Of a stretch of 35,000 nucleotides of DNA, positions 3,086-32,756 are shown piece by piece. The stretch is from Anaeromyces robustus (lineage: Eukaryota > Neocallimastigomycota > Neocallimastigomycetes > Neocallimastigales > Neocallimastigaceae), in assembly GCA_002104895.1 (NCBI GenBank), contig MCFG01000234.1, positions 1-35,000 on the forward strand. The letters run 5' to 3'. Positions within the stretch are counted from its first letter, which is position 1; each line of letters opens with the position of its first letter. The notes beneath the pieces are model-generated. The model did not search any database. It saw only the letters and a list, made by a program, of their open reading frames with translations, and was not told the origin of the DNA. The position numbers and the translations under genes were made by a program.

Positions 3086-4015
3086 CCTAACATTATGAAT
3101 AACTAATGAATTTAAATATTAAACTCATTAAAATAAAAAATTCAGTTAAAATTATACTTTGAAATTGATAATTTTTAAAAAAAATTCAATTTTTATTATA
3201 TAAATCAATAATAATTAAAAAATAATATATTTATTAGAGTTTAAAAATTTAAAGGGTTTGGACCAAAACATAAATTAGGGAGGTGTCCCATTTCGCCAAG
3301 TCACTATTTATTATTTATTATTTATTATTTATTAAAATAAAATAATTTTTTAATATGGCGTATTTTTTAAAAAGTATAAATTTTTGTATATTAAGTTGGT
3401 GAAATGGGTCACATCCCATAAATTAATAATAATAATTTAACCCTTTTTAATTAATTAAGAAATGGAATATACACAAAAAAAAAAAATTAATTTATAAAAA
3501 CATTAATTGTCAAATACAAAAAATGAGTATTAGCTATGGTTCCTTTAGATTTTTATATTAATTGAGAAACTCTACTCAAAATCTACAATATATCAATTTT
3601 CTCAGTTATTTATAATTACTATTTCAAGAGATATTATACAAAAAAAAAATTATCATCTATAAAAAATTAGATAAATGATTTAAAAGGTCTCTTTAAATTA
3701 AGTATCTAATATATTGATAAAATATATCATCTTTTTTGTTTTAATATATAAATATTAATACTAAAGTAAAAAGAATTATTAGTATTTTATTAACTTTTTT
3801 AATTTTCAGTATTCTTACTTTTAAATAATAATAATAATATTATTATTCATTTATTTATTAAATAAAACCATTAATATTAAAAAAATCATAAAACAAATTT
3901 TAAAACTTATTTTTTATTATTATTATATAAATTTTAAAGTATTATAAACTTTAAAAGAAAATTCAATTTTAAATAAATTGGTTAATATCAAAAAAGAAGT
4001 TTCATTTAATTTTTT
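3086..4015 (+). mobile_element. Family D LTR relic (diverged cousin of B), hosting a MITE
   Basis: Same architecture as B but more diverged: a hairpin near the left end (AATGA...TCATT), the AAAGGGTT...AACCCTTT pair, then a core recognisable as B's (GAGAAACTCTACTCAAAATC and CAAGAGATATT). Other copies start near 8358 and 9858, each directly after the T9 tract of a tRNA-Ser flank, which shows D occupied the class II site before B and F. The right boundary is not sharply visible; 4015 is where the tRNA-distal block begins. A 140-bp MITE sits inside it. Confidence 0.5.
3278..3417. mobile_element. 140-bp hAT-like MITE with 8-bp target duplication
   Basis: The terminal inverted repeats are 22 bp, GGGAGGTGTCCCATTTCGCC at the left and, on the other strand, GGGATGTGACCCATTTCACC, matching at 19 of 22 positions. 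ATAAATTA flanks both sides (3270-3277 and 3418-3425). The empty site survives in the sister unit at 10005-10020, where a single ATAAATTA joins the same neighbours, and a near match lies at about 8518. This proves insertion. An 8-bp duplication fits hAT-type elements. The interior is a TTTA microsatellite with no coding capacity, so movement would have needed a transposase from elsewhere. Confidence 0.85.
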
Positions 4016-4091
4016 AAGAAATATCATAGTTTGAAAAAAAAATTCACTAGTATTCATAAAAAAAAAAAAGTAAAATGTGGTAGTAAATTTA

Positions 4092-4262
4092 AAAAAAAAA
4101 TTAATAAAAAAGTTATTATATAAAATTATTTTTTTATTTAAATTTTAAAATGTTATAGAATTTAAAGAAAATTTATTTTTTTTAAATATTTAATTAAATA
4201 GTTTGTTAAGATTAATTTATATTAATAAATTGAATATCTTAATTTAATCGTTTTTTTTTTTT
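4092..4262 (-). repeat. Inverted segment within the tRNA-distal unit
   Basis: The roughly 170 bases between the GTGGTAGTAAATTT block and the AAAGTATGAATAATTAAAATT block are the reverse complement of the equivalent segment at 79-245 and 10692-10855. Here one reads TTGTTAAGATTAATTTATAT followed by TTAATTTAATCG; in the other copies the same words appear on the opposite strand in the opposite order. The ends are A- and T-runs, which could have acted as short inverted repeats. Confidence 0.7.
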
Positions 4263-4330
4263 AATAATTAAATTAAAATTATTATTTAAAAGTATGAATA
4301 ATTAAAATTAAAAAAAAAAAAAAAACGCAT

Positions 4331-5275
4331 GATTTGAAACATTTGCATTGATATTAAAATATATATATATATATATAATAAAATAAATAAATAAATATAC
4401 GGAAATTAGAAATTTGATTAGGATTCATATAATAAATTTTATAATACTTCAGAATATCAAGAATATTAGGAAATTTTAAAATTTCGGATATTCTAGAATA
4501 TGAAAATTTTTAATATTAATATTGTTATGGCAATGAATTATTATACTGAATTAACTAGTTTAGAAATAAATGAAAAACTCTTTGTAATTTACTGAAAGTA
4601 CGGTTTCTAAACCTGCTTATAAAAATCAAAATGATGCAATTTATGGAGGTCTTAAATGAAACTTGAAAATCTAAAAAAAAAAAAAAAATGTACTAAAAAC
4701 TTGATAAACTTTTTCTAATTTTTGACTTTATAAATAGATTTAGTAAAGAATATAATGAAATAATTAATAAGAAAAATATTATCTATATCAAATGGTAATA
4801 CAAATAAATAAATATTATTAAGAGGGATTTCTTTTTTCTTTACTATAATATCAAATAAAATAATAATATTATTATTTTATTTTAATTTTTTTTTAGAAAT
4901 AAATTCTATAAGACATTCTATTTGTACTAATCTCTCAAAAAAATAATGAAATGAATATTACTGTATTACTTCAGGAAAAAATAATAAAATTAATCCTTTA
5001 GATATCAAAAAAAAAAATAAATATTTTTAGATGATCTATCATATTACTTATACTTATACATCAAGTTCTTTACATTATTGGAATATTGGAAAACCACATA
5101 AATAATAAATGAAATATGACAAATATATATGAATATGAAAATGATATTGATTACATTGAAACACTTTTAAATCAAACTTACTGAGTAAGTTTCGATAATA
5201 AAAATGAAAATAAATTTAATGATGATGATCCTTTGAGTAACTTTGATATTTCAAATTTTTATTAATAATAAAAAC

Positions 5276-5306
<31 letters not shown>

Positions 5307-5735
5307 TATAATGAATTTTTAAATGATATCACTAAAACTTTAAAATTAAAAAAAAAATATTTCACAAGCTATAAAAAAGGATTTTAAAAAATAAAAAAAA
5401 ATTTTTTTCATTTTATTATTATTATTAAAATAAAATATATATATATAATTTTTATATATATAATTTTTTTCATTTTATTATTATTATTTTATAATATATA
5501 TAAATATTTATAAAAAAAAGAAAAAGAAAAAGAAATAAAATATTAAATAAAAAATAAAATAAAATAAAAATTATAAATTATAAATTAAAAATTAAATATA
5601 TATTATATATAAAAAAGAGACTTGAAATATTTTTAAAATTTAATATATTTTTCATTTTAGATATATATATATATATAACATAAGAACTGTTTTTTTTTTT
5701 TTTAATGATACTAAAAAAAAAATGGAAAAATTAAG
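4331..5735 (+). pseudogene. AT-rich insert with possible decayed coding remnant (about 4515-5270)
   Basis: This stretch replaces the usual tRNA-distal sequence and is absent from the sister units. Short protein-like runs are visible on the plus strand but are separated by stops and shifts, for example an acidic tail at about 5117-5266 (NIYEYENDIDYIETLL, then FNDDDPLSNFDISNFY before a stop) and an earlier run around 4530-4580 (YYTELTSLEINEKLF). I do not recognise the family; a lost DNA transposase or an unknown host protein are both possible. The rest, 5280-5720, is TA and A-rich simple sequence. Confidence 0.3.
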
Positions 5736-5817
5736 CGACAGCTGCAGGGTTTGAACCTGCGCAGGCAGAGCCTATTAGATTTCAAGTCTAACTCCTTAAC
5801 CACTCGGACAAACTGTC
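5736..5817 (-). tRNA. tRNA-Ser(UGA), copy 2
   Basis: 82 nt, identical in the mature region to copy 1, with anticodon UGA in a CTTGAAA loop, a long variable arm and an intact B box. T5 follows a few bases beyond the 3' end. Its 5' side carries the deepest stack in the window: 10 unique bases, TCAT, H1, TCAT, C, TCAT, G, then the native flank. Confidence 0.97.
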
Positions 5818-5831
5818 TTCGCTTGTTTCAT

Positions 5832-6501
5832 TGATACGAACCTCATAGAAATATAGCTTTAAAGTAGATTATGATAATTATATACCTATGTAAATAAATA
5901 TAAATTTACAATATTAATAATGTAAAATTGTATTATACACATATAATTAATTATTATAATCAATTTACCAATAGTATTAAAGGAAATTAATATAGAATAA
6001 GACTATAAAATAATAAATTTTAATAAATAAAAATAAATTAAGAGAAAAAAAAAAAAAAAAAAAAATAATTAAGAAAATATAGAGAAATAAATATTTAAAT
6101 AGTTATCAAATAGTGAATAATTATATAAAATTTTAAATATATTACTAAGGTAATTAAGCTAAATATTAGGAATATATTAAGAAAATAATATTTATCTTAG
6201 AGAATTACCTTAATAATAATAGTAATAATAATAATAATTAGAACTTAATATTAAACTTATTATAAGAATACAAACATTGTAAAAGATAATTATTATTAGT
6301 GTAGAAAGACTAATAATTAAATAAAATAAATAAACATTACGACTTTAAAACATAAATTCATTTTAGTTATTGTTTATAAAATAATAACATGTTTAAGTAT
6401 ATTTTTATAAATCTTTATACTAGAATATATTATTTTATATTTAACAACTTGTAGTTTCCCTAAATAAATAAAAATTGATACTATTTGAAAAAGTTGTATC
6501 A
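5832..6501. mobile_element. Solo LTR H1 (670 bp), class I site, 14 bp from tRNA-Ser copy 2
   Basis: The block begins TGATACGAACC and ends GTTGTATCA, so the ends form the inverted pair TGATAC/GTATCA. TCAT flanks both sides (5828-5831, 6502-6505), a 4-bp target duplication. The ends match those of the tandem LTR array at 24994-27622. A small stem (ATTAGT...ACTAAT) near 6298 recalls the tetraloop hairpin of element C. No coding region is seen. By position it is the last arrival in this stack. Confidence 0.65.
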
Positions 6502-6505
6502 TCAT

Positions 6506-7724
6506 TGATACAATATTCCCTTATATACACATTATTTCTAAACCCATATTTTTAAACCTTTTATCCCATATAAACTAACATTTAATAAAACTTCTTTATA
6601 ATATTATTAATATCTTAAAACATAATAATTTTATCTATATTAAAAATTATTTTTATATTATCAATATTTTATTAATATCTTAAAATAAATTATAAATATT
6701 TTATTAATATCAAATAAATTTTATTAATACTTTATAATTAATATTCTTATAATAAATTTTATCAATATTCTTATAATAAATAAATATTATTAATATTTTA
6801 TATTAAATAAATCCTATTAATATCTTATAATAAATTCTATATCTTTATTAATATTTTAAATAAATCTTATTAATATTTTATAATAAAACTTTATATATAA
6901 TAAATAATATTTTAAATAATATTTTATCAATATCAAATATTTTATAACACTTTATTAATACATTTTATTTATATTCTTATAACAATAATTATTAATATTT
7001 CTAATTCTAACCTTTAATAAATTTAATACTTCAATATAATTATAATAATAAATATTTATAATAATAAATATATAAATAATTATAATTAAATAATATTATC
7101 CACTCCTTTCCCTTTTTCCCTTATCCTTTCCCTCCAACTTAAAAACCCTGGACAAATACAGAAAATAAATATTCTGTATAATATTAAAATAAAATAAAAT
7201 AAAAATAATAATAAAAATTAATTATAAAATAAATGAATTATTTATAAAATGTATAATACAGAAGTTAAATGTATTTCTGTATAAAAGTATAATATTTATT
7301 TTTAATTTTTATTTAAAACACTAAATAGATTAATAAAAATATTTAATAATTAGAATAGAAAATATTAATAAATAATAATAACAATAATAATTAATATTAA
7401 AATAAATCTTAGAATATAATATTTAGAATAGAGAATTATATTATAAAATAAATAATAATAATTAGATTAATTAAATAAATAATAATAATAATAATAGTCG
7501 AAAGACTATAATAATAAAATTCATGTATTATAAAAGGAGGATAATTTTTCTTTCTTTTATAAAACGATCAATAATTTGTATTTAAAAATAAGAATAATAA
7601 AAATAAAAGAAGAGTTAAACAAAAGATTATTTTATTTTTAATTTTATTGATTCATTAGTAATAATTATTTAGTATATAAGTTAATTATATTTATTGTTTA
7701 TGAATATACATGTTTCCTGCATCA
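6506..7724. mobile_element. LTR-like element C (1219 bp)
   Basis: The block begins TGATACAATATTCCC and ends TTTCCTGCATCA, flanked by TCAT on both sides. Other copies are 22027-23597 (inverted) and a partial one at 13694-14383. Conserved inner features include a CT-rich stretch near 7105-7140, two hairpins with arms ATACAGAA/TTCTGTAT (7156-7179, 7256-7284), a GAAA tetraloop hairpin (7494-7509) and an AAAAGGAGGATAATTTTTC box just after it. No open frame of note. Confidence 0.6.
7494..7509 (+). other. GAAA tetraloop hairpin in element C
   Basis: ATAGTC-GAAA-GACTAT is a 6-bp perfect stem with a GNRA-type loop. It is preserved at 14148-14161 (5-bp stem) and, on the other strand, at 22241-22256, while the surrounding AT sequence drifts. 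This suggests a structured RNA within the element. Confidence 0.6.
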
Positions 7725-7727
7725 TCA

Positions 7728-8301
7728 TGATAAAGAATGAAATTTATAAAAATATAATTAATACTTGCTGAATTTCAAAATATTATAAAATTATTTAAAA
7801 TATAAATTATAAAATATTTAATTATTTAAATAATATTTAATATAAACAAATTATTTATTTTAACTATTTAATGTTCTTAATTTTAATAAATTAATATTTT
7901 ATTTATAAACAAACTTAAAAATAAGAAAATAATATAAAAAGAAAATGAAAAATTAATATTTTTAAAAATTGTTACTAATTATCCATAAAAATTAGAATAA
8001 TAATAATAATAATAATTAGAATAATAATATTTAAAATAACTACTAGATTAATAATAATTAAAGATTATAATAATAAATTTTATAATGTTTTTAATAACTA
8101 GATTTTAATATTTTTAATACATAAACGAGATGTATTAAATAAATTTATAATTTTAATAAAAGTAATTTTAAAACTAAAATATTAAACTTAATAAATTTCT
8201 TTTAAATTTATAACTAAATATGATTTAGACAATCATATATTTGAACAATGAAGTTATCACTTTCTATTTAATAGAATTAAGATAATTTCAACATTGTTTC
8301 A
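7728..8301. mobile_element. Solo LTR, family G, older member of the stack
   Basis: The block begins TGATAAAGAATGAAATTTAT, homologous to 11302 onwards (TGATAAATAATGAAATTTTT), and ends GAATTAAGATAATTTC...TTGTTTCA. TTCA lies at 8302-8305 and, before later insertions, at 5827-5830, giving a 4-bp target duplication one base off the TCAT used by H1 and C. It is shorter than the other G copy, so the two differ internally. Its outermost position makes it the oldest class I insertion here. Confidence 0.5.
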
Positions 8302-8357
8302 TTCAAATTTTTTTAGTGGTTATATAATTATAATTTGGGTATTTTATGTGTTTTTTT
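8302..8357 (-). promoter_or_regulatory. Displaced native flank of tRNA-Ser copy 2
   Basis: This is the same TTCAAA, T-run, TATATAATTATAATTTGGG and T9 block that touches tRNA copies 1 and 3, but here it is separated from its gene by about 2.5 kb of LTRs. It marks the left edge of the first 1.5-kb tandem unit. Confidence 0.7.
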
Positions 8358-8994: not shown

Positions 8995-9710
8995 TTCGTT
9001 TAATTTTTTAAGATATATCAAAATTTGAAAAAAAAAAATCATTAGTATTCATGTCCATTTATTAATATAAATTAATCTTAACAACTATTTAATTAAGTAT
9101 TTAAAAAAAAAATAAATTTTCTTTAAATTTTATAACATTTTAAAATTTAAATAAAAAAAATAATTTTATATCATAACTTTTTTATTAATTTTTTTTTTTA
9201 ATAAATAATTAAATTAAATTATTATTTAAAAGTATAAATAATTAAAATTAAAAAAATTAATATAATAATGTTAAATTTTAGATGTCTACCAAACAAAATA
9301 AAAAATAAAAAAATTATTTATATATAATAATAGTTTTTTTTTCGTTTTTTTTTAAAAAATAATATTTTTTTTTGTTTGTATGTGTACATATATCTAGGTT
9401 AATATAACTTGAAATTAATAATCCTATAATGGATTGAAAATTAAATTTATTATAAAATCTCTCGAGTATATACGAGTATATACACAAGATTTCCTCCATA
9501 TAATTTTAATTTGAAATATAAGTAAAAGTAACGAAAAAAAAAAAAATAAAATTAAAAAAAATGAAAAAAAAAATTTTTTTTTTCTTTATTTTCATCTATA
9601 TATATATGTAATTAATCTAAAAAAAAATAATTTATATATATTTAAAATTAGCAAAATATAAAACGTCAGATACTAAAAAAAAAAAATGTAAAAAAAATTT
9701 AAAAATTAAG

Positions 9711-9792
9711 CGACAGCTGCAGGGTTTGAACCTGCGCAGGCAGAGCCTATTAGATTTCAAGTCTAACTCCTTAACCACTCGGACAAACTATC
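9711..9792 (-). tRNA. tRNA-Ser(UGA), copy 3
   Basis: 82 nt, the same as copy 1 except that acceptor position 3 is U (GATAGTT), making a U-G pair with G70. Copy 5 at 27637 shares this variant. The native 5' flank is intact, with TATATA at 9821-9826, 29-34 bp upstream. No class I element is inserted here. Confidence 0.97.
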
Positions 9793-9857
9793 TTTGTTCA
9801 TTTCAAATTTTTTTAGTGGTTATATAATTATAATTTGAGTATTTTATGTGTTTTTTT

Positions 9858-10570
9858 TTCCCTAACATTATGAATAATTAGTGAATTTAAATATTAAACT
9901 CATTAAAAATTATACTTTGAAATTAATAATCTTTAAAAAAATTAAATTTTTATTATATAAATCAATAATAATTAAAAAATAATATATTTAAAGTGTTTGG
10001 ACCAAAACATAAATTAATAATAATAATTTAACCCTTTTTAATTAATTAAGAAAAGGAATATCCACAATAAAAAAAAAATTAACTTAAAAAAACATTAATT
10101 TGTCAAATACAAAAAATGAGTATTAGTTTTTGTTATAGTTCCTTTAGATTTTTATATTAATTGAGAAACTCTACTCAAATCTACAATGTATCAAATTTCT
10201 CAGTTATTTATAATTACTATTTCAAGAGATATTATACAAAAAAAAAATTAGATAAACGTTTTAAAAGGGCTCCTTAAAATAAGTATCTAATATATTGATA
10301 AAATATGTCATTTTTTTTTAATATATAAATGTTAATATTAAGTTAAATGAATTATTAGTATTTTATTAATCTTTTTTAATTTTCAGTGTTCTTACTTTTA
10401 AATAATAATATTATTATTATTATTCATTTAATAATTATTAAATAAAACCATTAATATAAAAAAAAAGTTGTTATAAAACAAAATTTTGAAAGTTTTTTTT
10501 TATTATTATTATTTAAATTTTAAAATTCAATTTTAAATAAATTGGTTAATATCAAAAAAATAGTTTCATT
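9858..10570 (+). mobile_element. Family D LTR relic, second tandem unit
   Basis: Begins CCCTAACATTATGAATAA after the T9 tract, 66-68 bp upstream of tRNA-Ser copy 3. It carries the AAGTGTTTGGACC...AACCCTTTTT pair and the B-like core at about 10118-10235. ATAAATTA within it is the clean empty site that demonstrates the MITE insertion at 3278. Confidence 0.5.
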
Positions 10571-10622
10571 TAATTTTTTAAGAAATATCAAAATTTGAAA
10601 AAAAAACACTAGTATTCATGAA

Positions 10623-10666
<44 letters not shown>

Positions 10667-11204
10667 AAACATGGTAGTAAATTTGAATTAAAAACGATTA
10701 AATTAAGATGTTCAATTTATTAATATAAATTAATCTTAACAAACCATTTAATTATTTAAAAAAAAAAATAAATTTTCTTTAAATCTTATAACATTCTAAA
10801 ATTTAAATAAAAAAAATAATTTTATATAATAACTTTTTTATTAATTTTTTTTAATAAATAATTAAAAATAAAAAAATAATATAATAATGGTAAATTATTA
10901 TTTAGATACCTATCAAATAATTTAACCAAAATAAAAAAAAAAATTTTTTTATATAAAATATGTAATAATAATTTTTTTTTATATAATAATAGTTTTTTTC
11001 TTTTTTTTTATAAAATAATTTTTTTTTATATAATAATAGTTTTTTTTCTTTTTTTATAAAATAATATATATATATATATAATTTAAAGTATAAGTAAGAG
11101 TAACGAAAAAAAAAAAAAAAATAAAATAAAATAAAAAAAAATAAAAAAAATTTTCTTTTTTTTTTTCTAAAAAATTATATATATATAATTAATAAAATAT
11201 TAAG

Positions 11205-11286
11205 CGACAGCTGCAGGGTTTGAACCTGCGCAGGCAGAGCCTATTAGATTTCAAGTCTAACTCCTTAACCACTCGGACAAACTGTC
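11205..11286 (-). tRNA. tRNA-Ser(UGA), copy 4
   Basis: 82 nt, identical in the mature region to copies 1 and 2. On the sense strand only T4 follows closely, a weaker terminator than in copies 1-3. A family G LTR starts 15 bp upstream of its 5' end and pushes the native flank to 12341. Confidence 0.97.
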
Positions 11287-11301: not shown

Positions 11302-12340
11302 TGATAAATAATGAAATTTTTATAGTACTTTTAATTATAATATTAACTTTTAAAAATTCTAATTAGTTTTATTTATTATTATTCTCTATAATTTATTATT
11401 AATTTACTTTAATTATAATTATTTTCTAAACTTCAAATAATTAATAAATTTTAATATTATATTGAATTATCATTTAAAATAATTAATAACATTAATAAAA
11501 AAATAATAAGATTATTAAATTATATTTTAAAACAATATCTTTATCATTATTATCTTAAACTAAATCAATTCTTAAAAATATTATTGAATATTAAATTTAT
11601 ATAAATTATAAACAATTTATAATTAATATTATAAAAATAATAAACGATTCTAAAATATTTTAATTAAATAATATGACTCGAAAATAGTTTCTAAAAACAC
11701 TTTTAAAATACCTTCTAAATACTTTTTAAATATTCTTTACACTTAAACATTTCTAAATTAGAAATAACAACTAATTTTATTTACTTTATAAATAAATAAA
11801 CAGTTTATCTTTATAATTTTATTAATAATATTATTTATTTTTATTATTTATTTTATTATTATTTTTATACATTTTTACTTATTTTATTCAATAATTTTTA
11901 ATTATTTTATTTATATTTTTATAAATACTTGTATTATTTTATTTATTATTGTAAATAGTTTAATTTTAAAGAAAAATATAAATACATGTAAATATTTTTA
12001 TGTAAATTAATTCTTTACTACTATTTTTAATAATAGCTTAGTCATAAATATAATGAATTAATAATTATTAGAATAAATTACTAAATTAAAATATATAATC
12101 AACATAAAATAGTTTAGTTAAGAATAAAACTACTATTTAATAAATAATAATAAATTTAATAAAATTTTAATAAATAAATTTTATATTTTAAACTTAATAA
12201 TAAAACTGTGTTTTTATAAAACAATTTTAGTGTTTAAATTTACAATCTACTGGAAAATAACTTAGACAGTTATTCTGAAAATACATAGGTAATATCACTT
12301 TCTTCCCTATAAAGAATTAAGATATTACCATTTTGTATTA
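11302..12340. mobile_element. Solo LTR, family G (about 1039 bp), class I site
   Basis: The block begins TGATAAATAATGAAATTTTT and ends TTTTGTATTA, flanked by CAAA on both sides (11298-11301, 12341-12344). The right end aligns with that of the copy at 7728-8301 (TATCACTTTCT...AAGAATTAAGATA). Its end nearest the tRNA puts TATAAAAA, read on the tRNA strand, at 31-38 bp upstream of the gene. The terminal dinucleotide is TA rather than CA, so that boundary is less certain. No open frame. Confidence 0.5.
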
Positions 12341-13693: not shown

Positions 13694-14383
13694 AAATTAA
13701 TACTTTAAAATATATTTATAATAATAAATATATAAATAATTATAATTAAAATAAAAAATAATTTTATCCATTCTTTTCCCTTATTCTTTCCCTCCAACTT
13801 AAAAACTCTGGACAAATACAGAAATAAATATTCTGTATATTATTTTAATAAAATAAAATAAATAAAATAATAAAAATTAATTATAAAATAAAGAAATTAT
13901 TTATAAAATGTATAACACAGAAGTTAAATGTATTTCTGTACAAAAGTATAATATTTATTTTTAATTTTATTTAAAACACTAAATAAATTAGGAACAATAT
14001 TTAATAATTAGAATAGAAAATATTAATAAATAATAATAACAATAATAATTAATATTAAAAAAAAATCTTAGAATATATTATTTAGAATAGTGAATAATGT
14101 TATAAAATAAATAATAATAATTAAATTAATTAAATGATTAATAAATTTAGTCGAAAGACTATACTAATAAAATTCATGTATTATAAAAGGAGGATAATTT
14201 TTCTTTTTTTTATTCTACATTAATTTTATTATTATAGTCTTATAAAAACGAACAATAATTTTATATTTTAAAATAAGAATAATAAATAAAGAAAAGTTAA
14301 GAAAAGATTATTTTACTTTTAATATTTATTGTATTCATGTAGTAATTTTTATATATTTATTGAATGTACTGTTTCCTGCATCA
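13694..14383 (+). mobile_element. Element C, partial (right half)
   Basis: It matches 7016-7724, starting at the TTAATACTT block and ending GTTTCCTGCATCA. The CT-rich stretch, both ACAGAA...TTCTGT hairpins, the GAAA tetraloop (14148-14161) and the AAAAGGAGGATAATTTTTC box are retained. The abrupt B/C junction at about 13694 matches neither element's natural end, so it arose by recombination. Confidence 0.6.
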
Positions 14384-16140
14384 AAAATTATTACAAAACG
14401 AACAAATAATGTAATTTACATTAGAATTAGAATTGCGTAAATTTATTTTAACCCATTAATAAATTATTCTATTTTATATTTTAGAACTTTCCTATATTCT
14501 AAAAATATTATTATTATTATAAAATCAAAATAAAATTATTAATATCAATTTACATCCCAAATTGAATTATTATTAGTACTTATAAAATCAAATTATGCAC
14601 TATTCTATATTATTATTATAATTATTTATAATATTATATATTATATCAAATTCTTCTTTTAATTCTATTAAATATAAAAATTTATATTAACAATTCAAAA
14701 CTGCTTTTACTGATTTTTCAATTACCAATATTCAACTAAACCACAACAAAATATTTTATAATTTTTTTTTTTTTTTTTTTATTTTATTTAAAATTTCAAT
14801 TAAAACAAAAATAAAAAAAAAGTTAATAGTTATTACCATTAAAATTAGCCTGTAATTAAAATTTAAATTATCATTTTTATAATGGTAATAGTAAATAATA
14901 ATATGTAATATTTTGTAATATATTATTAAAAGTAATAAGAAAGAAAAAAAGAAAAAATGAAGGATGATTTATTAAAAAATGGGAATCTCTCTGACATACA
15001 ATGAAAAGAGAACATTTAATATTTTTTAATTGATTATTTTTTATTATTAATAAAATAAAAAAATGAATGTAAAAATAAATAAAGAAAATGGTTTGAAAGA
15101 ATTGCTATTTAGATTATTGTTTTATTTAAAAATTGATTAGTTAATTTGTATTTTTTAATTTAAAATATTATATATAAATTTGTATATTTTTTTTATTATT
15201 TTTTATTTGTTTTCATTTATTTTTATTTTGTTTATTATTCATTATTATTATTTTTATTTATGATTCCTTAAATATATTATTATTTATTAATATTACTATT
15301 TAAATAATTATTATTATAATTATTCATTATTATTATTATTATTATTATATTGTCATTTCAGTGTACCTAAAGTGATGTAATATATGAGAATTTAAATCTG
15401 GATTGTTTTTTTAATTATTCATTTTCTGGAACATTTTGATATTTGATTTAATAAAATACTAACAGTCAAATGTAAGTGAAATTATTTTTATTTTTGTATA
15501 TATATATCTTAATTAATTAATGGTTTTTATTATTTAAAAAAAAAAAAATAAATAAAAAAAAAATAATTAAATACTATATAAAATAATATTATTAAGAATT
15601 AGTTAATCCAAATTAGATATTACTTTACATTTTAAGATAATATCTTAAAAAAATATTTTTTTAACAAGTTCTAGTCTAATGAAATTATTACTATTTTTAA
15701 TTCATAATTCCATTGAACTTATAGTACTACAAATTATTTTATTATAACAGTACTTATAATAATTTCAAATATTGTCATAGTATTACTTTTATAGTATTTT
15801 AATTATTGTTATAATAATAAAACTTTTTGTAATAATATAATAAATAAACTTTTATTATGTGTATTAGAATATTTAATATTAAATATTTTATACATTGTAT
15901 GTCCATTTTTTATGTGTAAAATATATATATAGATAAATTAACTTTTATTATGTATATATTATAATATTAAATATTAAATATTCTATAAATGGTATGTCCA
16001 TTTTTTTATATAATATATATATATATATAGATAAATTAAACATTCCCTGTTCATTGTTGAATTTTTTTTTATATTAATAAATAAAAGTATTAAAAGTATT
16101 TTAAGACTAGGTTTATATTAAAAAAAAAAAAAAAAAAAAA
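14384..16140. other. Intergenic spacer upstream of the ankyrin-like gene
   Basis: Almost pure A/T with poly-T (about 14761-14780) and ATT microsatellites (about 15320-15350). I see no gene. A roughly 97-bp imperfect tandem duplication lies at 15843-16037, and an A-run of about 20 leads directly into the ATG at 16141. It presumably holds the promoter of that gene; no single box stands out. Confidence 0.6.
15843..16037. repeat. Imperfect tandem duplication, about 97 bp x 2
   Basis: Both halves read AACTTTTATTATGT..., then GTATGTCCATTTTTT, then a TA run and ATATAGATAAATTA. They lie 100 bp upstream of the ankyrin-like start codon, so this could be a duplicated promoter element. Confidence 0.75.
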
Positions 16141-24993: not shown

Positions 24994-25507
24994 TGATACT
25001 GATATTTATTTTGTATCTTTAATATATTTTAGGAACGCGACAGTTGGGGAACACGACAATATAATATTTTCATAATAAGATATTTATTTTATGTTTTAAT
25101 AGACTATTTATTTATTTAAAAATAATTAATTACATTTAAATTATAATTATAAATAAAATATATTTATTCCAATAATTAAATATAATATTAATTCTATTTA
25201 AAACATGTTTATAATGACAATAATAACTATTTCTGAAAATTAATATTGAAAACCTTGTGTTGAAAATAATAATTCTTTTAAATTATAAAATATTGATAAT
25301 AAAATTCTTCTAAAAATTCTTTTATACTTATCTGAAGCAATTCCCTAACTCAGGAAAAGTCCTCGTTTAATTTTATTATTATTATTTTTCTTTTATATCT
25401 ATATTTTAATTATTTATCCAATCATTTACATATTATTATCCAATAATATGATTGAATATTTATTTATAGAACCATATACTCATTCTTTATATAACTATCT
25501 TGTATCA

Positions 25508-25527
25508 TAACGCCCCCACTTAAGTTA
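25508..25527 (-). other. Polypurine tract of the Ty3-like element (first unit)
   Basis: On the minus strand AAGTGGGGGCGTTA ends directly at the LTR, where plus-strand DNA synthesis would start. An identical tract lies at 26565-26584. Confidence 0.7.
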
Positions 25528-25788
25528 TGACTTCGTCCCTTGAAGTCATTCAAGCTTAGAATTTGTCAAAATTTGTATATATTTCTTAATAAAACTTCAC
25601 AAAAATATTAATTATTTCACTCGTAATTAATAAAAGTCCACCTTTTCTCTTAAACTCTACGGTAGATAAAAAAAAATAAAAGATAATCCACAAAAATCTA
25701 TAGCCGGTAGTTAACCAAATTCATAAGTTAAAAGATATTTCTTTAGCATCCACAATTAGCAGTAGAAATTTCCTTGAGGCAGTGAAAA

Positions 25789-25823
<35 letters not shown>

Positions 25824-26028
25824 ATTATTTTAAAAATTTTTTAAAAATATTTAAAAATATATAATTATATAAATTTTTTTATATATATATATATATAATA
25901 ATTATATAATAAAGGATTTATATATATATAATTCTACATTTTTTTTTATACGCAGATATAAAAAGATAATAATAATATTTTTAATAAATAAATATTTTAT
26001 TATTTTTCATATTATAATGTCACTGTCA

Positions 26029-26046
26029 CGCCCGGATTCTCCACCA
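26029..26046 (-). other. Primer-binding-site-like sequence (first unit)
   Basis: Minus-strand TGGTGGAGAATCCGGGCG, four bases inside the LTR, is the complement of a tRNA 3' end ...GGATTCTCCACCA. The identical sequence is at 27086-27103. None of the tRNAs in this window (Ser, Arg, Glu) ends this way, so the primer is not identified. Confidence 0.6.
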
Positions 26047-26845
26047 TTTTTGATACTGATATTTATTTTGTATCTTTAATATATTTTAGGAACGCGACAG
26101 TTGGGGAACACGACAATATAATATTTTCATAATAAGATATTTATTTTATGTTTTAATAGACTATTTATTTATTTAAAAATAATTAATTACATTTAAATTA
26201 TAATTATAAATAAAATATATTTATTCCAATAATTAAATATAATATTAATTCTATTTAAAACATGTTTATAATGACAATAATAACTATTTCTGAAAATTAA
26301 TATTGAAAACCTTGTGTTGAAAATAATAATTCTTTTAAATTATAAAATATTGATAATAAAATTCTTCTAAAAATTCTTTTATACTTATCTGAAGCAATTC
26401 CCTAACTCAGGAAAAGTCCTCGTTTAATTTTATTATTATTATTTTTCTTTTATATCTATATTTTAATTATTTATCCAATCATTTACATATTATTATCCAA
26501 TAATATGATTGAATATTTATTTATAGAACCATATACTCATTCTTTATATAACTATCTTGTATCATAACGCCCCCACTTAAGTTATGACTTCGTCCCTTGA
26601 AGTCATTCAAGCTTAGAATTTGTCAAAATTTGTATATATTTCTTAATAAAACTTCACAAAAATATTAATTATTTCACTCGTAATTAATAAAAGTCCACCT
26701 TTTCTCTTAAACTCTACGGTAGATAAAAAAAAATAAAAGATAATCCACAAAAATCTATAGCCGGTAGTTAACCAAATTCATAAGTTAAAAGATATTTCTT
26801 TAGCATCCACAATTAGCAGTAGAAATTTCCTTGAGGCAGTGAAAA

Positions 26846-26880
<35 letters not shown>

Positions 26881-27636
26881 ATTATTTTAAAAATTTTTTA
26901 AAAATATTTAAAAATATATAATTATATAAATTTTTTTTTATATATATATATATAATAATTATATAATAAAGGATTTATATATATATAATTCTACATTTTT
27001 TTTTATACGCAGATATAAAAAGATAATAATAATATTTTTAATAAATAAATATTTTATTATTTTTCATATTATAATGTCACTGTCACGCCCGGATTCTCCA
27101 CCATTTTTGATACTGATATTTATTTTGTATCTTTAATATATTTTAGGAACGCGACAGTTGGGGAACACGACAATATAATATTTTCATAATAAGATATTTA
27201 TTTTATGTTTTAATAGACTATTTATTTATTTAAAAATAATTAATTACATTTAAATTATAATTATAAATAAAATATATTTATTCCAATAATTAAATATAAT
27301 ATTAATTCTATTTAAAACATGTTTATAATGACAATAATAACTATTTCTGAAAATTTAATATTGAAAACCTTGTGTTGAAAATAATAATTCTTTTAAATTA
27401 TAAAATATTGATAATAAAATTCTTCTAAAAATTCTTTTATACTTATCTGGAGCAATTCCCTAACTCAGGAAAAGTCCTCGTTTAATTTTATTATTATTAT
27501 TTTTCTTTTATATCTATATTTTAAATATTTATCCAATCATTTACATATTATTATCCAATAATATGATTGAATATTTATTTATAGAACCATATACTCATTC
27601 TTTATATAACTATCTTGTATCATCGAAACAATGAAA

Positions 27637-27718
27637 GATAGTTTGTCCGAGTGGTTAAGGAGTTAGACTTGAAATCTAATAGGCTCTGCCTGCGCAGGTT
27701 CAAACCCTGCAGCTGTCG
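27637..27718 (+). tRNA. tRNA-Ser(UGA), copy 5
   Basis: 82 nt on the plus strand, with the same body as the four minus-strand copies and the U3 acceptor variant of copy 3. Anticodon UGA; intact B box GGTTCAAACCC. The terminator is weak: short T4 runs at about 27723 and 27731. The LTR end upstream places TATATA at 27603-27608, 29-34 bp before the gene, exactly where the native flank has it in copies 1 and 3. Confidence 0.97.
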
Positions 27719-28915
27719 CTTGAATTTTCTATTTTAAATAAATAATCTTTCTTTTTTATTATTTTTGGTATTTTATAAAAAGTAAAAATATTTTCATATT
27801 TAAATAAAATATTTGAAATTAGTAATATTTTTTAAATAATGAAATTTTAATAAAATAATAATAAAAAACGTACATACAAATAAATAAATAGACAAATAAA
27901 TAAATAAATAAAAATAAAAATAAAAAATAATAAAATATATAATTAAGTAGAAATAGAATAAATAAAAAAAGGAGTAGAAAAGAATTTTTAATTATTAACT
28001 AAAAATTATTAAATTCATTAATAGAAATCATGTATCATATGCTTTTTTATATTTCTAATTATAAATAATAATAGTAATAATAATAATATTAAATTTTTTA
28101 AAAAAATTAATATATATATATATAATAAATGAAAAAAAAAAAAGAAAAAGAAAAAAAAAATTTTTTTATTATTATAAATAAGAAAGATATAGAATATACT
28201 TTGAATAATAATAATAATACAAATAATTTTTTATAATTATTAAATAATAATTAATACAATTATATAATGTAAATAATAATAAAATTATATTAATGGAATG
28301 CTTTTTTTTATTAATATGTATTATTATTTACTAGTTACTTATATTACTGATATAAATTTTAATATTATTAATGAATTTAGTATTTATTATTATGTCTTAT
28401 TTAAGATTTTTTATATTTTGATTAGTTTTTTAATATCATATCATATGTATTTTTAAAATATTAATTATAAAAGTAAATTGAAAATTATATTTTATAGGTT
28501 GTCCATTTATAATAATTAATATAGAGTACAATTAATAACAATAATATTAAAAATTAAATTCAATAATTAATAAAAATATTAGAAAAGAAAATAACAATAA
28601 ATAAGTTATTATTATTTGAATATTAATTCAAAGATTTATTTAATTGATTTTTATTTTTTTTTTTTTAATTTATTTATTTATTTAATTATTAGGTTATATT
28701 TTATAATTTAATTTTTCTGTTTCATCACTTTGTTGTTGTGATGATTAAAAGTAATTTACTTTTAAATATTAATTATTTTTATGAAAATTATATAAATTTA
28801 AAATAAATAATATAGAACATTTGTATCATTCATTCTTTTTTTTCCATAAAACTTAATTATGGCTCTAATAAATTAAAAAAAAAAAATTTTTGGACTTTTT
28901 TTTTTATTTGATTAA

Positions 28916-29436: not shown

Positions 29437-32131
29437 ATGAAATTTCTAAATTTAATTACAATTTCAATTGCCATATTATTTATTAATTTGGCATTTGCTT
29501 CTTCCGTGGAAAAAAGATGTAATTTTTATTGAAATATATAATTTAATTATTTTATATATTGATTTATTCTTATTGTTTTAATAAATAAAAAAAAACATAA
29601 TAAAATGAAGCATAATTAAATTTTAATCAATCAGTTAATTATTTATTTTATTTTAATTTTAAAAAAAAATTTAATTATAATATATAGGTTTTAAAAAAAA
29701 GAATAAAGGATTTACTAGATTTTCAGGGGATGAAGTTTATTCATATGAAAAAGAACATATTAAAACTTTAGCTAGTTATTCTTCGGAATGTACTGTTTTA
29801 TTAAAAAAGAATGGTGATTTCCCTCTTACTAAAGAAGACACTAGAAAAGTTTATTTATATGGTAATGCTGTAAGAAAAACTTTAAAAGGTGGTACAGGTT
29901 CTGGTGATGTTAATTTACGTGAATTCGTCAATATTGAAACTGCTTTCACTAATGCAGGTTTTGAAGTTTTAACTAAAGATTTCATTGATGCTTATGATGA
30001 AGTTTATGAAAAAGCTAATAAAGAATTCCAAGAAGAATTAAATAATAATGGTGGTGGTATTTTAAATATGGGTGCTATTATGTCTGAACCAGAATATGAT
30101 CTTCCTTACGTTAAAGAAGGTGATCTTGCTATTTATGTTTTAGGTAGAGTTTCAGGTGAAGGTACTGATAGAAAACCAATTAAGGGTGATCTTTTCCTTA
30201 CTGATACTGAAAGAAAAATGATTAATGATTTAGCTAAAGGTTTCAAAAAATTCATGCTTGTTTTAAATACTGGTGGTCCAATTGATTTATCAGATCTTGA
30301 TGATGTTAAAAATATTTTAATTTTATCTCAACTTGGTGTTAATACTTCTAATACTTTAGTTGATGTTATTACTGGTGCTAAATATCCATCTGGTAAACTT
30401 GCTACTACTTGGACTAAATATGAAGATTATCAAACTATTGGTGATTTTGCTGAAAAAGATGATACTAATTATAAGGAAGGTATTTATGTTGGTTATCGTT
30501 ACTTTGATACTGTTAATACTGATGTTATGTATCCATTCGGTTTCGGTTTAGGTTACACTGATTTTGAATATGAAATTAAATCTTCAAAATTAAATGGTGA
30601 AACTTTCGAAGTTAAAACTAATGTTAAGAATGTTGGTAAATACAAGGGTAAAGAAGTTATGGAAGTTTATTTATCTAAGCCAAACACTACTTTAGATGAA
30701 CCATACCAAATTTTAGTTGGTTTCGCTAAAACTGATGAATTAAAACCAAATAAAAAGCAAACACTTACTATTAAATTCAAATTATCTGACTTTGCTAGTT
30801 ATGATACTAAGACTGCTACTTACATTTTAGATAAAGGTGATTATGTTGTTCGTGTTGGTAATTCTAGTAGAAATACTAAACCATGTGGTGTTATTAAAGT
30901 TGAATCTAGAATTGATGTTAGAAAAGTTGAAAATAAATTAGGAGATCCAGGTTTTGAAGATTACGTTCCAAAAATAAATAGTAAGAAAGAAGATTTAAGT
31001 AATGTTAAAACATTTACACTTAATGCTAAAAAAGTTAAGAAAGAAACTGTTGATTATGATTATTCATATCCAATTGCTAAGGAAGTTAAAGCTTTAACTC
31101 TTGAAGAAAAAGCTAAATTAGTTATTGGTGGTTATGTTGAAGATTTTATTGAAAGTCTTATTGGTGCAGCTGTTACTACTGTTGCAGGTGCTGCTGCTGA
31201 AACTAATACACTTGATGGTAAATTAAAACCAATTATTATGGCTGATGGTCCAGCTGGTGTAAGAATTGCAAAAAGTTATTTCCTTGATAGTGATGGTAAA
31301 GCTCATAATCTTGAAGGTAATTTACCAGAATCTATGATGAGTTTATTACCACCAGAAATGTTACAATTAGTTGATGCTAGTATGCCAAAACCATCAGTAA
31401 ATGATACTATTTATCATCAATATGCTTCTGCTATTCCAATTGGTACAGCTCTTGCTCAAAGTTGGAATAAAGAATTTGCTGAAGCTTGTGGTGATATCGT
31501 TGGTAGTGAAATGGTAATGTTTGGAGTTAATTTATGGCTTGCTCCAGCTTTAAATATTCATAGAAGTATTTTATGTGGTAGAAACTTTGAATATTATTCT
31601 GAAGATCCATTTATTAGTGGTATTATGGCTAGTGCTATTACTAATGGCGTTCAAGAACATAAGAATGCTTTTGTTACTCTTAAACATTTTGCTGCTAACA
31701 ATCAAGAAACTAATCGTTATCTTAATAGTAGTAATGTATCTGAAAGAGCTATGAGAGAAATTTACTTAAAAGCATTTGAAATGGCTATTAAAGAAGCTGA
31801 TCCAAAAGCTATTATGACATCATTTAATTTACTTAATGGAGTTCACACTAGTGAAAGTAAAGAATTAACTAATGATATTTTAAGACATGAATTTGGATTT
31901 GATGGTCTTGTTATGACTGATTGGGTTATAGCAATGGAAGGTGAATATAAATATCCAAACCCATCTGCTTCTAATGTTATTAAAGCTACTGGTGATCTTT
32001 TCATGCCAGGATCTCAAGCTGATTATGAAAATGTTCTTGAAGCTATTAAAAATAAAACATTAACTATGGAAGAATTAGAAATGGCTGTTACTAAAATTTA
32101 CAAATTATCTAAACAAATTGAAAAGAAATAA
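29437..32131 (+). CDS. Secreted GH3 beta-glucosidase, permuted domain order, one intron
   Basis: Splits beta-linked gluco-oligosaccharides such as cellobiose to glucose outside the cell. Exon 1 is 29437-29518, the intron is 29519-29687 (169 nt, GTAATT...TATAG, inside codon 28), exon 2 is 29688-32131; 841 residues. Residues 1-21 form a signal peptide (AILFINLAFA), followed by a Kex2-type KR at 26-27. Then come the domains in order: GH3 C-terminal domain (about 50-317, GGTGSGDVN at 95-103, putative acid/base E185 in SGEGTDR, YPFGFGLGY at 309-317), an Fn3-like domain (about 324-434), and last the GH3 barrel (about 489-841) with D547 in MADGPAGVR, R659, KH at 693-694 and nucleophile D772 in GLVMTDW. 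This reversed order is known for Ruminococcus albus and Butyrivibrio enzymes. No dockerin, so not cellulosome-bound. GGT/GCT-rich codons set it apart from its surroundings. Bacterial origin with fungal signal and intron is inferred. Confidence 0.93.
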
Positions 32132-32604
32132 ATATATATATATATTAAATAATAGAGAAATTATAAATATACCTTTTTAGAAATAGTAAAAAAAAAATGT
32201 AAAAAGAAAAATTCTTTTTCTATATTAAAAAAAATATTGTTTACTTAATTATTAATAAAATTTCATTTATAATAAAAATTATAAAAAAAAATATATTTAA
32301 TGTATTGAATATTAATTATAAATTTTTTTATTATTTTTTTTTTTCATTCTATATAGATATTTTTTAAAAAAAAATTTTTTTAGATAATATTAAAAAGTTG
32401 AAATATTTGAAAAGAAAAATAAAAAAGCAATATAAAATTAATTAATTATATCAAATAAATAATAATAAAAAGAAAGAAATAAAAATATTGAAAATATTGA
32501 TTGAAAATATTAATTTAATATAGTAAAAATATTAATAAATAAAAAAATAAAATAAAATTAGTATTATTCATTTAAAATTCAAAAAAAAAAAGTAAAAATA
32601 CGAG
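32132..32604. other. Spacer between beta-glucosidase and tRNA pair
   Basis: AT-rich 3' region. On the minus strand it contains T5 and T12 runs just past tRNA-Arg (about 32580-32600), the probable Pol III terminator. Confidence 0.6.
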
Positions 32605-32678
32605 CACTCACGGCGGGACTTGAACCCGCAATCTTCAGATTAGAAGTCTGACGCCCTATCCGATTAGGCTACGCGAGC
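32605..32678 (-). tRNA. tRNA-Arg(UCU)
   Basis: 74 nt. Acceptor GCTCGCG pairs with CGTGAGT, including G-U pairs. The anticodon stem TCAGA/TCTGA has loop CTTCTAA with anticodon UCU, reading AGA. T arm GCGGG-TTCAAGT-CCCGC. It lies 6 bases downstream of tRNA-Glu, too close for its own upstream promoter, so it is probably the second gene of one transcript. AGA is the main Arg codon in the beta-glucosidase. Confidence 0.95.
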
Positions 32679-32684
32679 TTTACA

Positions 32685-32756
32685 TTCCGCATCGGGGAAT
32701 CGAACCCCGGCCGCCACGGTGAAAGCGTGGAATCCTAGCCACTGGACCAATGCGAA
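32685..32756 (-). tRNA. tRNA-Glu(UUC)
   Basis: 72 nt. Acceptor TTCGCAT pairs with ATGCGGA, discriminator A. Anticodon stem CCACG/CGTGG, loop CTTTCAC, anticodon UUC. T arm CGGGG-TTCGATT-CCCCG. It is first in the Glu-Arg pair; no T-run separates the two. Its 5' flank has a TATATT-like box about 29-36 bp upstream, and LTR E begins 66 bp upstream. Confidence 0.96.

Follow-up and report, generated by a model that had tools for sequence, protein, structure and literature searches.

Pol III initiation sites as probable shared targets of several LTR retrotransposon families in Anaeromyces robustus

Pol III-directed retrotransposons are listed from budding and fission yeasts, Candida, Yarrowia and dictyostelids (PMC5911963; this and the other papers are cited from excerpts). 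Ty3 of Saccharomyces cerevisiae has the Ty3/gypsy domain order and inserts just upstream of Pol III genes, in a window a few bases wide, where it makes 5-bp target duplications (PMC8632968); contact with TFIIIC enables its insertion in both orientations (PMC5911963), and TFIIIC is essential for directionality (PMC8632968). DGLT-A of dictyostelids, a gypsy-type element without a chromodomain, lies upstream of tRNA genes at distances of 13-33 bp in D. discoideum and 13-16 bp in D. purpureum, with 2-32 listed copies per family and stacked insertions mentioned; the excerpt makes no mention of LTRs with A and B boxes as targets (PMC5006619). For the gypsy-type, self-primed Tj1 of Schizosaccharomyces japonicus, 13 of 17 assayed inserts lay at most 12 bp upstream of tRNA genes and 3 of the 17 at other Pol III genes (PMC4600332). 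A and B boxes without a tRNA gene have been met as targets of TRE5-A of Dictyostelium, whose insertions there were already read as marking Pol III complexes (PMC5391098). Boxes of this kind also occur inside LTRs, in Helenus/TRIMp3 (Kojima 2024). These elements are non-coding, measure 311-1263 bp, make 5-bp duplications in fungi and are known there from Pucciniales and a few Agaricomycetes; their Pol III activity is unproven, and whether tRNA-like LTR boxes are working promoters is an open question (PMC10886601).

The window analysed here is a stretch of 35,000 nucleotides (C151:1-35000 of a 70.17-Mb, 769-contig assembly; 16% G+C). It and the rest of the genome hold insertions that share with Ty3 the domain order (seen for family C) and the few-base window upstream of Pol III genes, and differ from it in four respects: the duplications are 4 bp long, almost every insertion has its 5' LTR end turned to the gene, several families take part, and LTR modules are targets too. 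We put at roughly 0.85 the probability that several families of integrase-type LTR retrotransposons aim insertion at Pol III initiation sites in this genome, which would make it a case of dense, multi-family Pol III targeting in a deep fungal lineage, in another kingdom than DGLT-A. Among top-ranked open-licence PubMed Central papers we found none on Pol III-targeted elements in anaerobic fungi and none on LTR modules as integration targets.

Stacked LTRs upstream of tRNA-Ser genes in the window

The window contains five tRNA-Ser copies and the following features.

892-974, minus: tRNA-Ser copy 1, upstream flank unbroken (empty site)
5735-5817, minus: tRNA-Ser (tga) copy 2, the target gene (ARAGORN)
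5818-5831, no strand: 14-bp spacer whose last four bases (5828-5831) are the duplication TCAT, read from the sequence
5832-6501, plus: LTR H1, 670 bp, the last to insert, with its 5' end facing the tRNA and TCAT behind it at 6502-6505
6506-7724, plus: LTR C, 1219 bp, inserted second; a solo LTR left by a long gypsy-type element
7725-7728, no strand: right copy of C's duplication TCAT, its final base being G's first base, read from the sequence
7728-8301, plus: LTR G, 574 bp, oldest insertion
8302-8305, no strand: right copy of G's duplication TTCA, read from the sequence; native flank beyond
9710-9792, minus: tRNA-Ser copy 3, upstream flank unbroken (empty site)
11204-11286, minus: tRNA-Ser copy 4 (ARAGORN)
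11302-12340, plus: LTR G2, 1039 bp, flanked by the duplication CAAA and lying 15 bp upstream of copy 4
24994-27622, minus: family A array of LTRs at 24994-25507, 26051-26564 and 27108-27622 plus two short internal stretches
27637-27719, plus: tRNA-Ser copy 5, 14 bp from the A array (ARAGORN)

At copy 2, the insertion points of H1, C and G lie 14, 14 and 13 bp from the tRNA. The edges of the LTRs in this pile were set by comparison with other genome copies. For C, 32 places (94-100% identity) start at C base 1 and 29 of the 32 reach base 1219-1221; for G, 23 other copies (84-99% identity) begin at query base 1-4 and stop at 575-578. C's last bases are ATCA at 7724 and G's first bases are TGATAAAG from 7728, so C's TCAT is made up of TCA (7725-7727) and G's first T. 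With the edges fixed, the duplications of all three elements are exact 4-mers (TTCA for G, TCAT for C and for H1). The insertion order is G, then C, then H1, the newer element always being closer to the gene.

A sequence-only reading of this stretch had described three LTR units in series 13-14 bp before copy 2, and we recovered both their order and their coordinates. Its 4-bp duplications proved exact for all three elements after the edges were re-read; the C/G junction is not the plain TCAT/TTCA that it gave, nor does G start near 7650. Its proposal that one spot was re-used by class I insertions with the newest next to the gene is likewise supported. We had considered H1 as a DNA transposon or MITE on account of its inverted ends. 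H, C and A have like ends and are LTRs of longer elements, which have polypurine sequence beside the 3' LTR, and the MITE reading was therefore dropped.

The two other occupied copies had been described as hit by G at 15 bp (copy 4) and by an array at 14 bp (copy 5). The first distance stands and the family does not, as G2 is longer and resembles G only at its 5' end. The second was confirmed, the array consisting of three family A LTRs. Primer-site-like and polypurine sequences give its sense as minus, and its flanks, TTGA and TCGA, differ by one mismatch. The tRNA-Ser loci sit in diverged duplicated segments that are 80-96% alike (519-1183 / 9314-9992, 3417-4115 / 10008-10667 and others).

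LTR ends and Pol III-type genes across the genome

The sequence-only reading had predicted a sharp peak of LTR ends 13-15 bp from tRNA genes throughout the genome. A box B pattern matched 258 places (29 in the control), and ARAGORN identified 50 tRNA genes among the 100 matches listed, which formed our sample. Searched against a library of LTR ends, with only those alignments kept that came within 12 bases of the LTR end, 24 of these 50 genes had an LTR end just upstream of the mature tRNA 5' end, at 13 bp (3 genes), 14 bp (5), 15 bp (8), 16 bp (7) or 21 bp (1), where A's 13 bp is really 14 because the library ends of that family had extra bases. The peak was thus found: 23 of the 50 sampled genes fall in the range 13-16 bp, the remaining match being at 21 bp. 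The matches had E<=1e-5 in 22 of the 24 cases, two being weak (E about 8e-4), and five of the 24 stem from library ends (T, E, U, V and X) taken from sampled loci; these families are known from flanks only, and the ends of T and X recur within the sample, those of E and U elsewhere and that of V nowhere. None of the 50 genes had a library LTR end within 50 bp downstream; farther out, seven downstream matches lay at 54-285 bp. Further matches comprised four tRNA-Arg genes at 93-97 bp, each behind a tRNA-Glu gene bearing the LTR, three matches at 147-266 bp and one (C24) that points away. All 16 of the 24 upstream LTRs that belong to families with two known ends present the 5' end, so that transcription of the element would run away from the gene. 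Close pairs of tRNA-Glu(ttc) and tRNA-Arg(tct) occur in the window (32604-32756) and at C151, C181 and C446 (L009, L010, L012-L014, L032), any LTR present being upstream of the Glu gene.

The predicted peak was also recovered by a pattern search that is not anchored on LTR families. TATCA followed after 5-35 bases (N) by box A matched 166 places in the genome, compared with 23 for the reversed control; of 100 matches listed, 29 native rows of the LTR module S1 (described below) were set aside and 71 scored, tRNA class being assigned by eye from gene-start strings. N was 19-23, corresponding to about 12-16 bp from the tRNA-like +1, in 18 of the 20 tRNA-type matches and in all 25 matches of the S2 type, one of which (C88:3794) belongs to a native S2 copy where TATCA occurs by chance (24 of 24 without it). 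The three S1-type matches had N = 20, 22 and 32, and the 23 matches of no class spread from 6 to 34.

Read from the LTR side, 58 of the 60 outer ends examined for A, C and G have as their immediate neighbour a tRNA gene, a unit with box B or a further LTR. For C (41 main places, 9 of which lacked a terminus and were left out; 32 with a 5' end, minus 3 3' LTRs read from inside), all 29 outer 5' ends were explained, by 11 tRNA genes, 9 S-type LTR modules, 4 other box B-bearing units and 5 LTRs. For G, read in 17 of 40 scored candidates, 15 of 17 were explained (2 tRNA, 6 S-type, 1 other unit, 6 LTR), and two copies (C364:35310 and C364:26431) had no recognised target, longer flanks included. The 14 intact outer ends of A met 4 tRNA genes, 2 S-type modules, 4 other units and 3 LTRs, plus one reversed copy (L045) whose 3' end lies at a box B-bearing unit; L168 also suggests a reversed neighbour. 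C and G were read for targets on the 5' side only, so their counts are no measure of orientation, which was measured by the tRNA sample and family A. Four outer ends of H, outside the 60, met two tRNA genes, one LTR and one off-site position, behind rather than upstream of box B of an S2 unit (L006). Within an H LTR beside tRNA-Ser, L008 (C242) is a further TGTAA...TTACA unit, flanked by the 5-bp repeat TTATA, with a box B-like motif.

Stacking was found repeatedly, for example C on C at C270. Exact 4-bp duplications flank 13 of the 16 C copies read at both ends. Another two of the 16 belong to longer elements as the 5' LTR and precede the same primer-site-like sequence that occurs in the window's A array, and at one (C137; L153/L195) a 20-bp repeat flanks the C insertion instead of a 4-bp duplication. 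The other units (L043/L061/L153/L159, L045/L156/L157, L044, L047 and L170) have box B-like motifs by eye; Rfam at gathering threshold gave no tRNA in L043, L044, L045, L047 or L061. No LTR was found upstream of one nuclear-looking 5S and two U6 genes (n = 3), where the library scan gave scattered A+T-rich matches. A second 5S match (C135:69741-69858, L189) lies beside an N run, with upstream sequence resembling bacterial or organellar rRNA, and is possibly contamination.

At C270, an integrase match lies between same-strand C LTRs at 3955-5171 and 14235-15452; C comes from a Ty3/gypsy-type element some 11.5 kb long. Searched in pieces, its pol frame gave protease (below cut-off), RT, RNase H, H2C2 and integrase core, so that among the landing families (A, C, G, G2 and H) the order protease-RT-RNase H-integrase was seen for C; as in DGLT-A, a chromodomain was lacking (no Chromo match at E<=0.01). 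Compared with solved structures, the integrase part matched foamy virus integrase at 1e-32 and Ty3 integrase at 9e-18. The earlier assignment to a Ty3-like family holds for C by domain order, whereas the duplications, 4 bp in the C copies and in the window pile, depart from the 5 bp of Ty3. Unlike the self-primed Tj1, C and A have a TGG-type primer-site-like sequence after the LTR. G is the LTR of a short element, same-strand G pairs lying about 1.76 kb apart elsewhere.

LTR modules with A and B boxes as a second target

The earlier reading was confined to tRNA sites. Besides tRNA genes, many insertions are placed before A/B-box modules that belong to the LTRs of another gypsy family, one with a chromodomain, again with the 5' LTR end nearly always facing the target. 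S1 is a 572-bp unit (TGTAACG...CGTTACA) that lies within an A element with the 5-bp duplication CAAGC. S2 was seen as a 715-bp copy with an exact ATCAG duplication, as a copy that holds an A LTR and has ATTAT, and as a third copy with one mismatch. We had considered the A/B-box units as SINEs, and rejected this because the S1, S2 and C56 types are LTR units with 5-bp duplications.

The pattern TGTAACG-N10-40-box A matched 338 places in the genome and none in the control. Among 100 matches listed, the module spans 47 bp in 98 and 46 bp in 2, and box B was present in the module sequences read. Same-strand pairs among these 100 are spaced by 1.09 kb (S1), 4.38-4.57 kb (nine pairs), 6.50-6.81 kb (six pairs) or other distances. 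The six pairs at 6.50-6.81 kb (C56, C134, C139, C193, C194, C219) enclose a same-strand integrase match. At C56:94660-101692 (L209, L210, L213) is a 7.03-kb element with two identical 530-bp LTRs, each with an A/B-box module, flanks GGACC and a frame for gag, protease, RT, RNase H, integrase and chromodomain. For C219, the LTR portions compared agree at 99.6%. The nine pairs at 4.38-4.57 kb (C39, C59, C122, C159, C190, C192) are without integrase among the matches listed and perhaps represent a large non-autonomous derivative.

The modules and tRNA genes have two boxes in common. ARAGORN found no tRNA in 13 S1 loci, run as a negative control, and the Rfam tRNA model did not match modules L072, L209 and L211 even at E<=10. 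TGG was absent directly after the S1 and C56 LTRs. In having an A and a B box in the LTR and in their 5-bp duplications, the S1, S2 and C56 types resemble Helenus, and the S1 pair may still count as a relative; they differ from the short non-coding elements described under that name in that the S1 pair measures about 1.66 kb and the C56 element is long and coding. PMC10886601 had considered it improbable that such modules are shared with long coding elements.

How the insertion site may be chosen

We believe the C integrase is most likely guided by Pol III initiation factors, by analogy with Ty3, Tj1 and DGLT-A. TFIIIC on box A and box B would position TFIIIB, which in turn would tether the integration complex. 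Since an element inserts upstream of both boxes, the gene remains a target afterwards and the pile grows outward. The internal boxes are favoured as the cue because every round swaps the upstream DNA, yet the next insertion comes at an unchanged distance.

At the A/B-box LTR modules, a TFIIIB/TFIIIC complex would form too and direct insertion at an equal offset. The insertions thereby suggest that these modules assemble Pol III factors in living cells, on sites that are LTR modules rather than the rDNA hit by TRE5-A, a non-LTR element landing about 50 bp upstream. On a wider reading, to which we give even odds, there is a chain of parasitism in which chromodomain gypsy LTRs carry Pol III-type promoters that are factor-bound in vivo, and a second gypsy-type set lands there and at tRNA genes. 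The insertions provide a natural map of Pol III factor assembly sites, and the question whether tRNA-like LTR boxes work as Pol III promoters is now directly testable.

Pol III itself could instead be the tether, through a Ty1-like contact, and Pol III-linked insertion is expected from either route. Ty1 insertions scatter across about 1 kb upstream, whereas Ty3, Tj1 and DGLT-A are narrow (PMC5911963), as are the insertions here, within a few bases, and C belongs to the gypsy rather than the copia type; we consider this route unlikely. It is highly improbable that the adjacency arose because LTR and tRNA were duplicated as one segment or because the element brought the tRNA with it. The window's tRNA-Ser copies do sit in duplicated segments and some tRNA clusters are repeated between contigs, but one LTR end precedes tRNA-Ser, Arg, Cys, Thr, Val, Gly, Leu, Ala, Trp and Glu genes, empty sites exist and the duplications vary by site. 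For C, different duplications at different genes refute segment duplication. An integrase preference for a DNA sequence present by chance in these flanks is scarcely credible, even in a very A+T-rich genome where S1 and S2 are repeats with fixed flanks, since insertion-point sequences differ among tRNA genes, S1 and S2 at a like offset from box A, 22 duplications have no common motif and each insertion alters the upstream DNA before the next arrives at equal distance.

In a post hoc comparison, TATAWW was found 20-24 bases inside the 5' end in each of the five families for which both ends are known (C, G, G2, A and H; chance expectation 0.11 per family) and was absent 12-30 bases inside their 3' ends. 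In landing 5' ends it would fall near -34 to -38 of the gene. By eye it is lacking in families T, E, V and X, and native flanks have no clear common TATA position (4 of 26 at -30 to -34). Landing elements may thus rebuild an upstream promoter, and a rebuilt TATA would account both for the 5' end facing the gene and for the gene's survival through repeated insertion.

The dockerin model CBM_10 has at least 150 matches in the genome (150 of 683 candidates were scored, and all of them matched), a content that fits an anaerobic gut fungus (Neocallimastigomycota). Elsewhere in the window, a 687 aa open frame at 30068-32131 resembles a GH3 glycoside hydrolase by eye.
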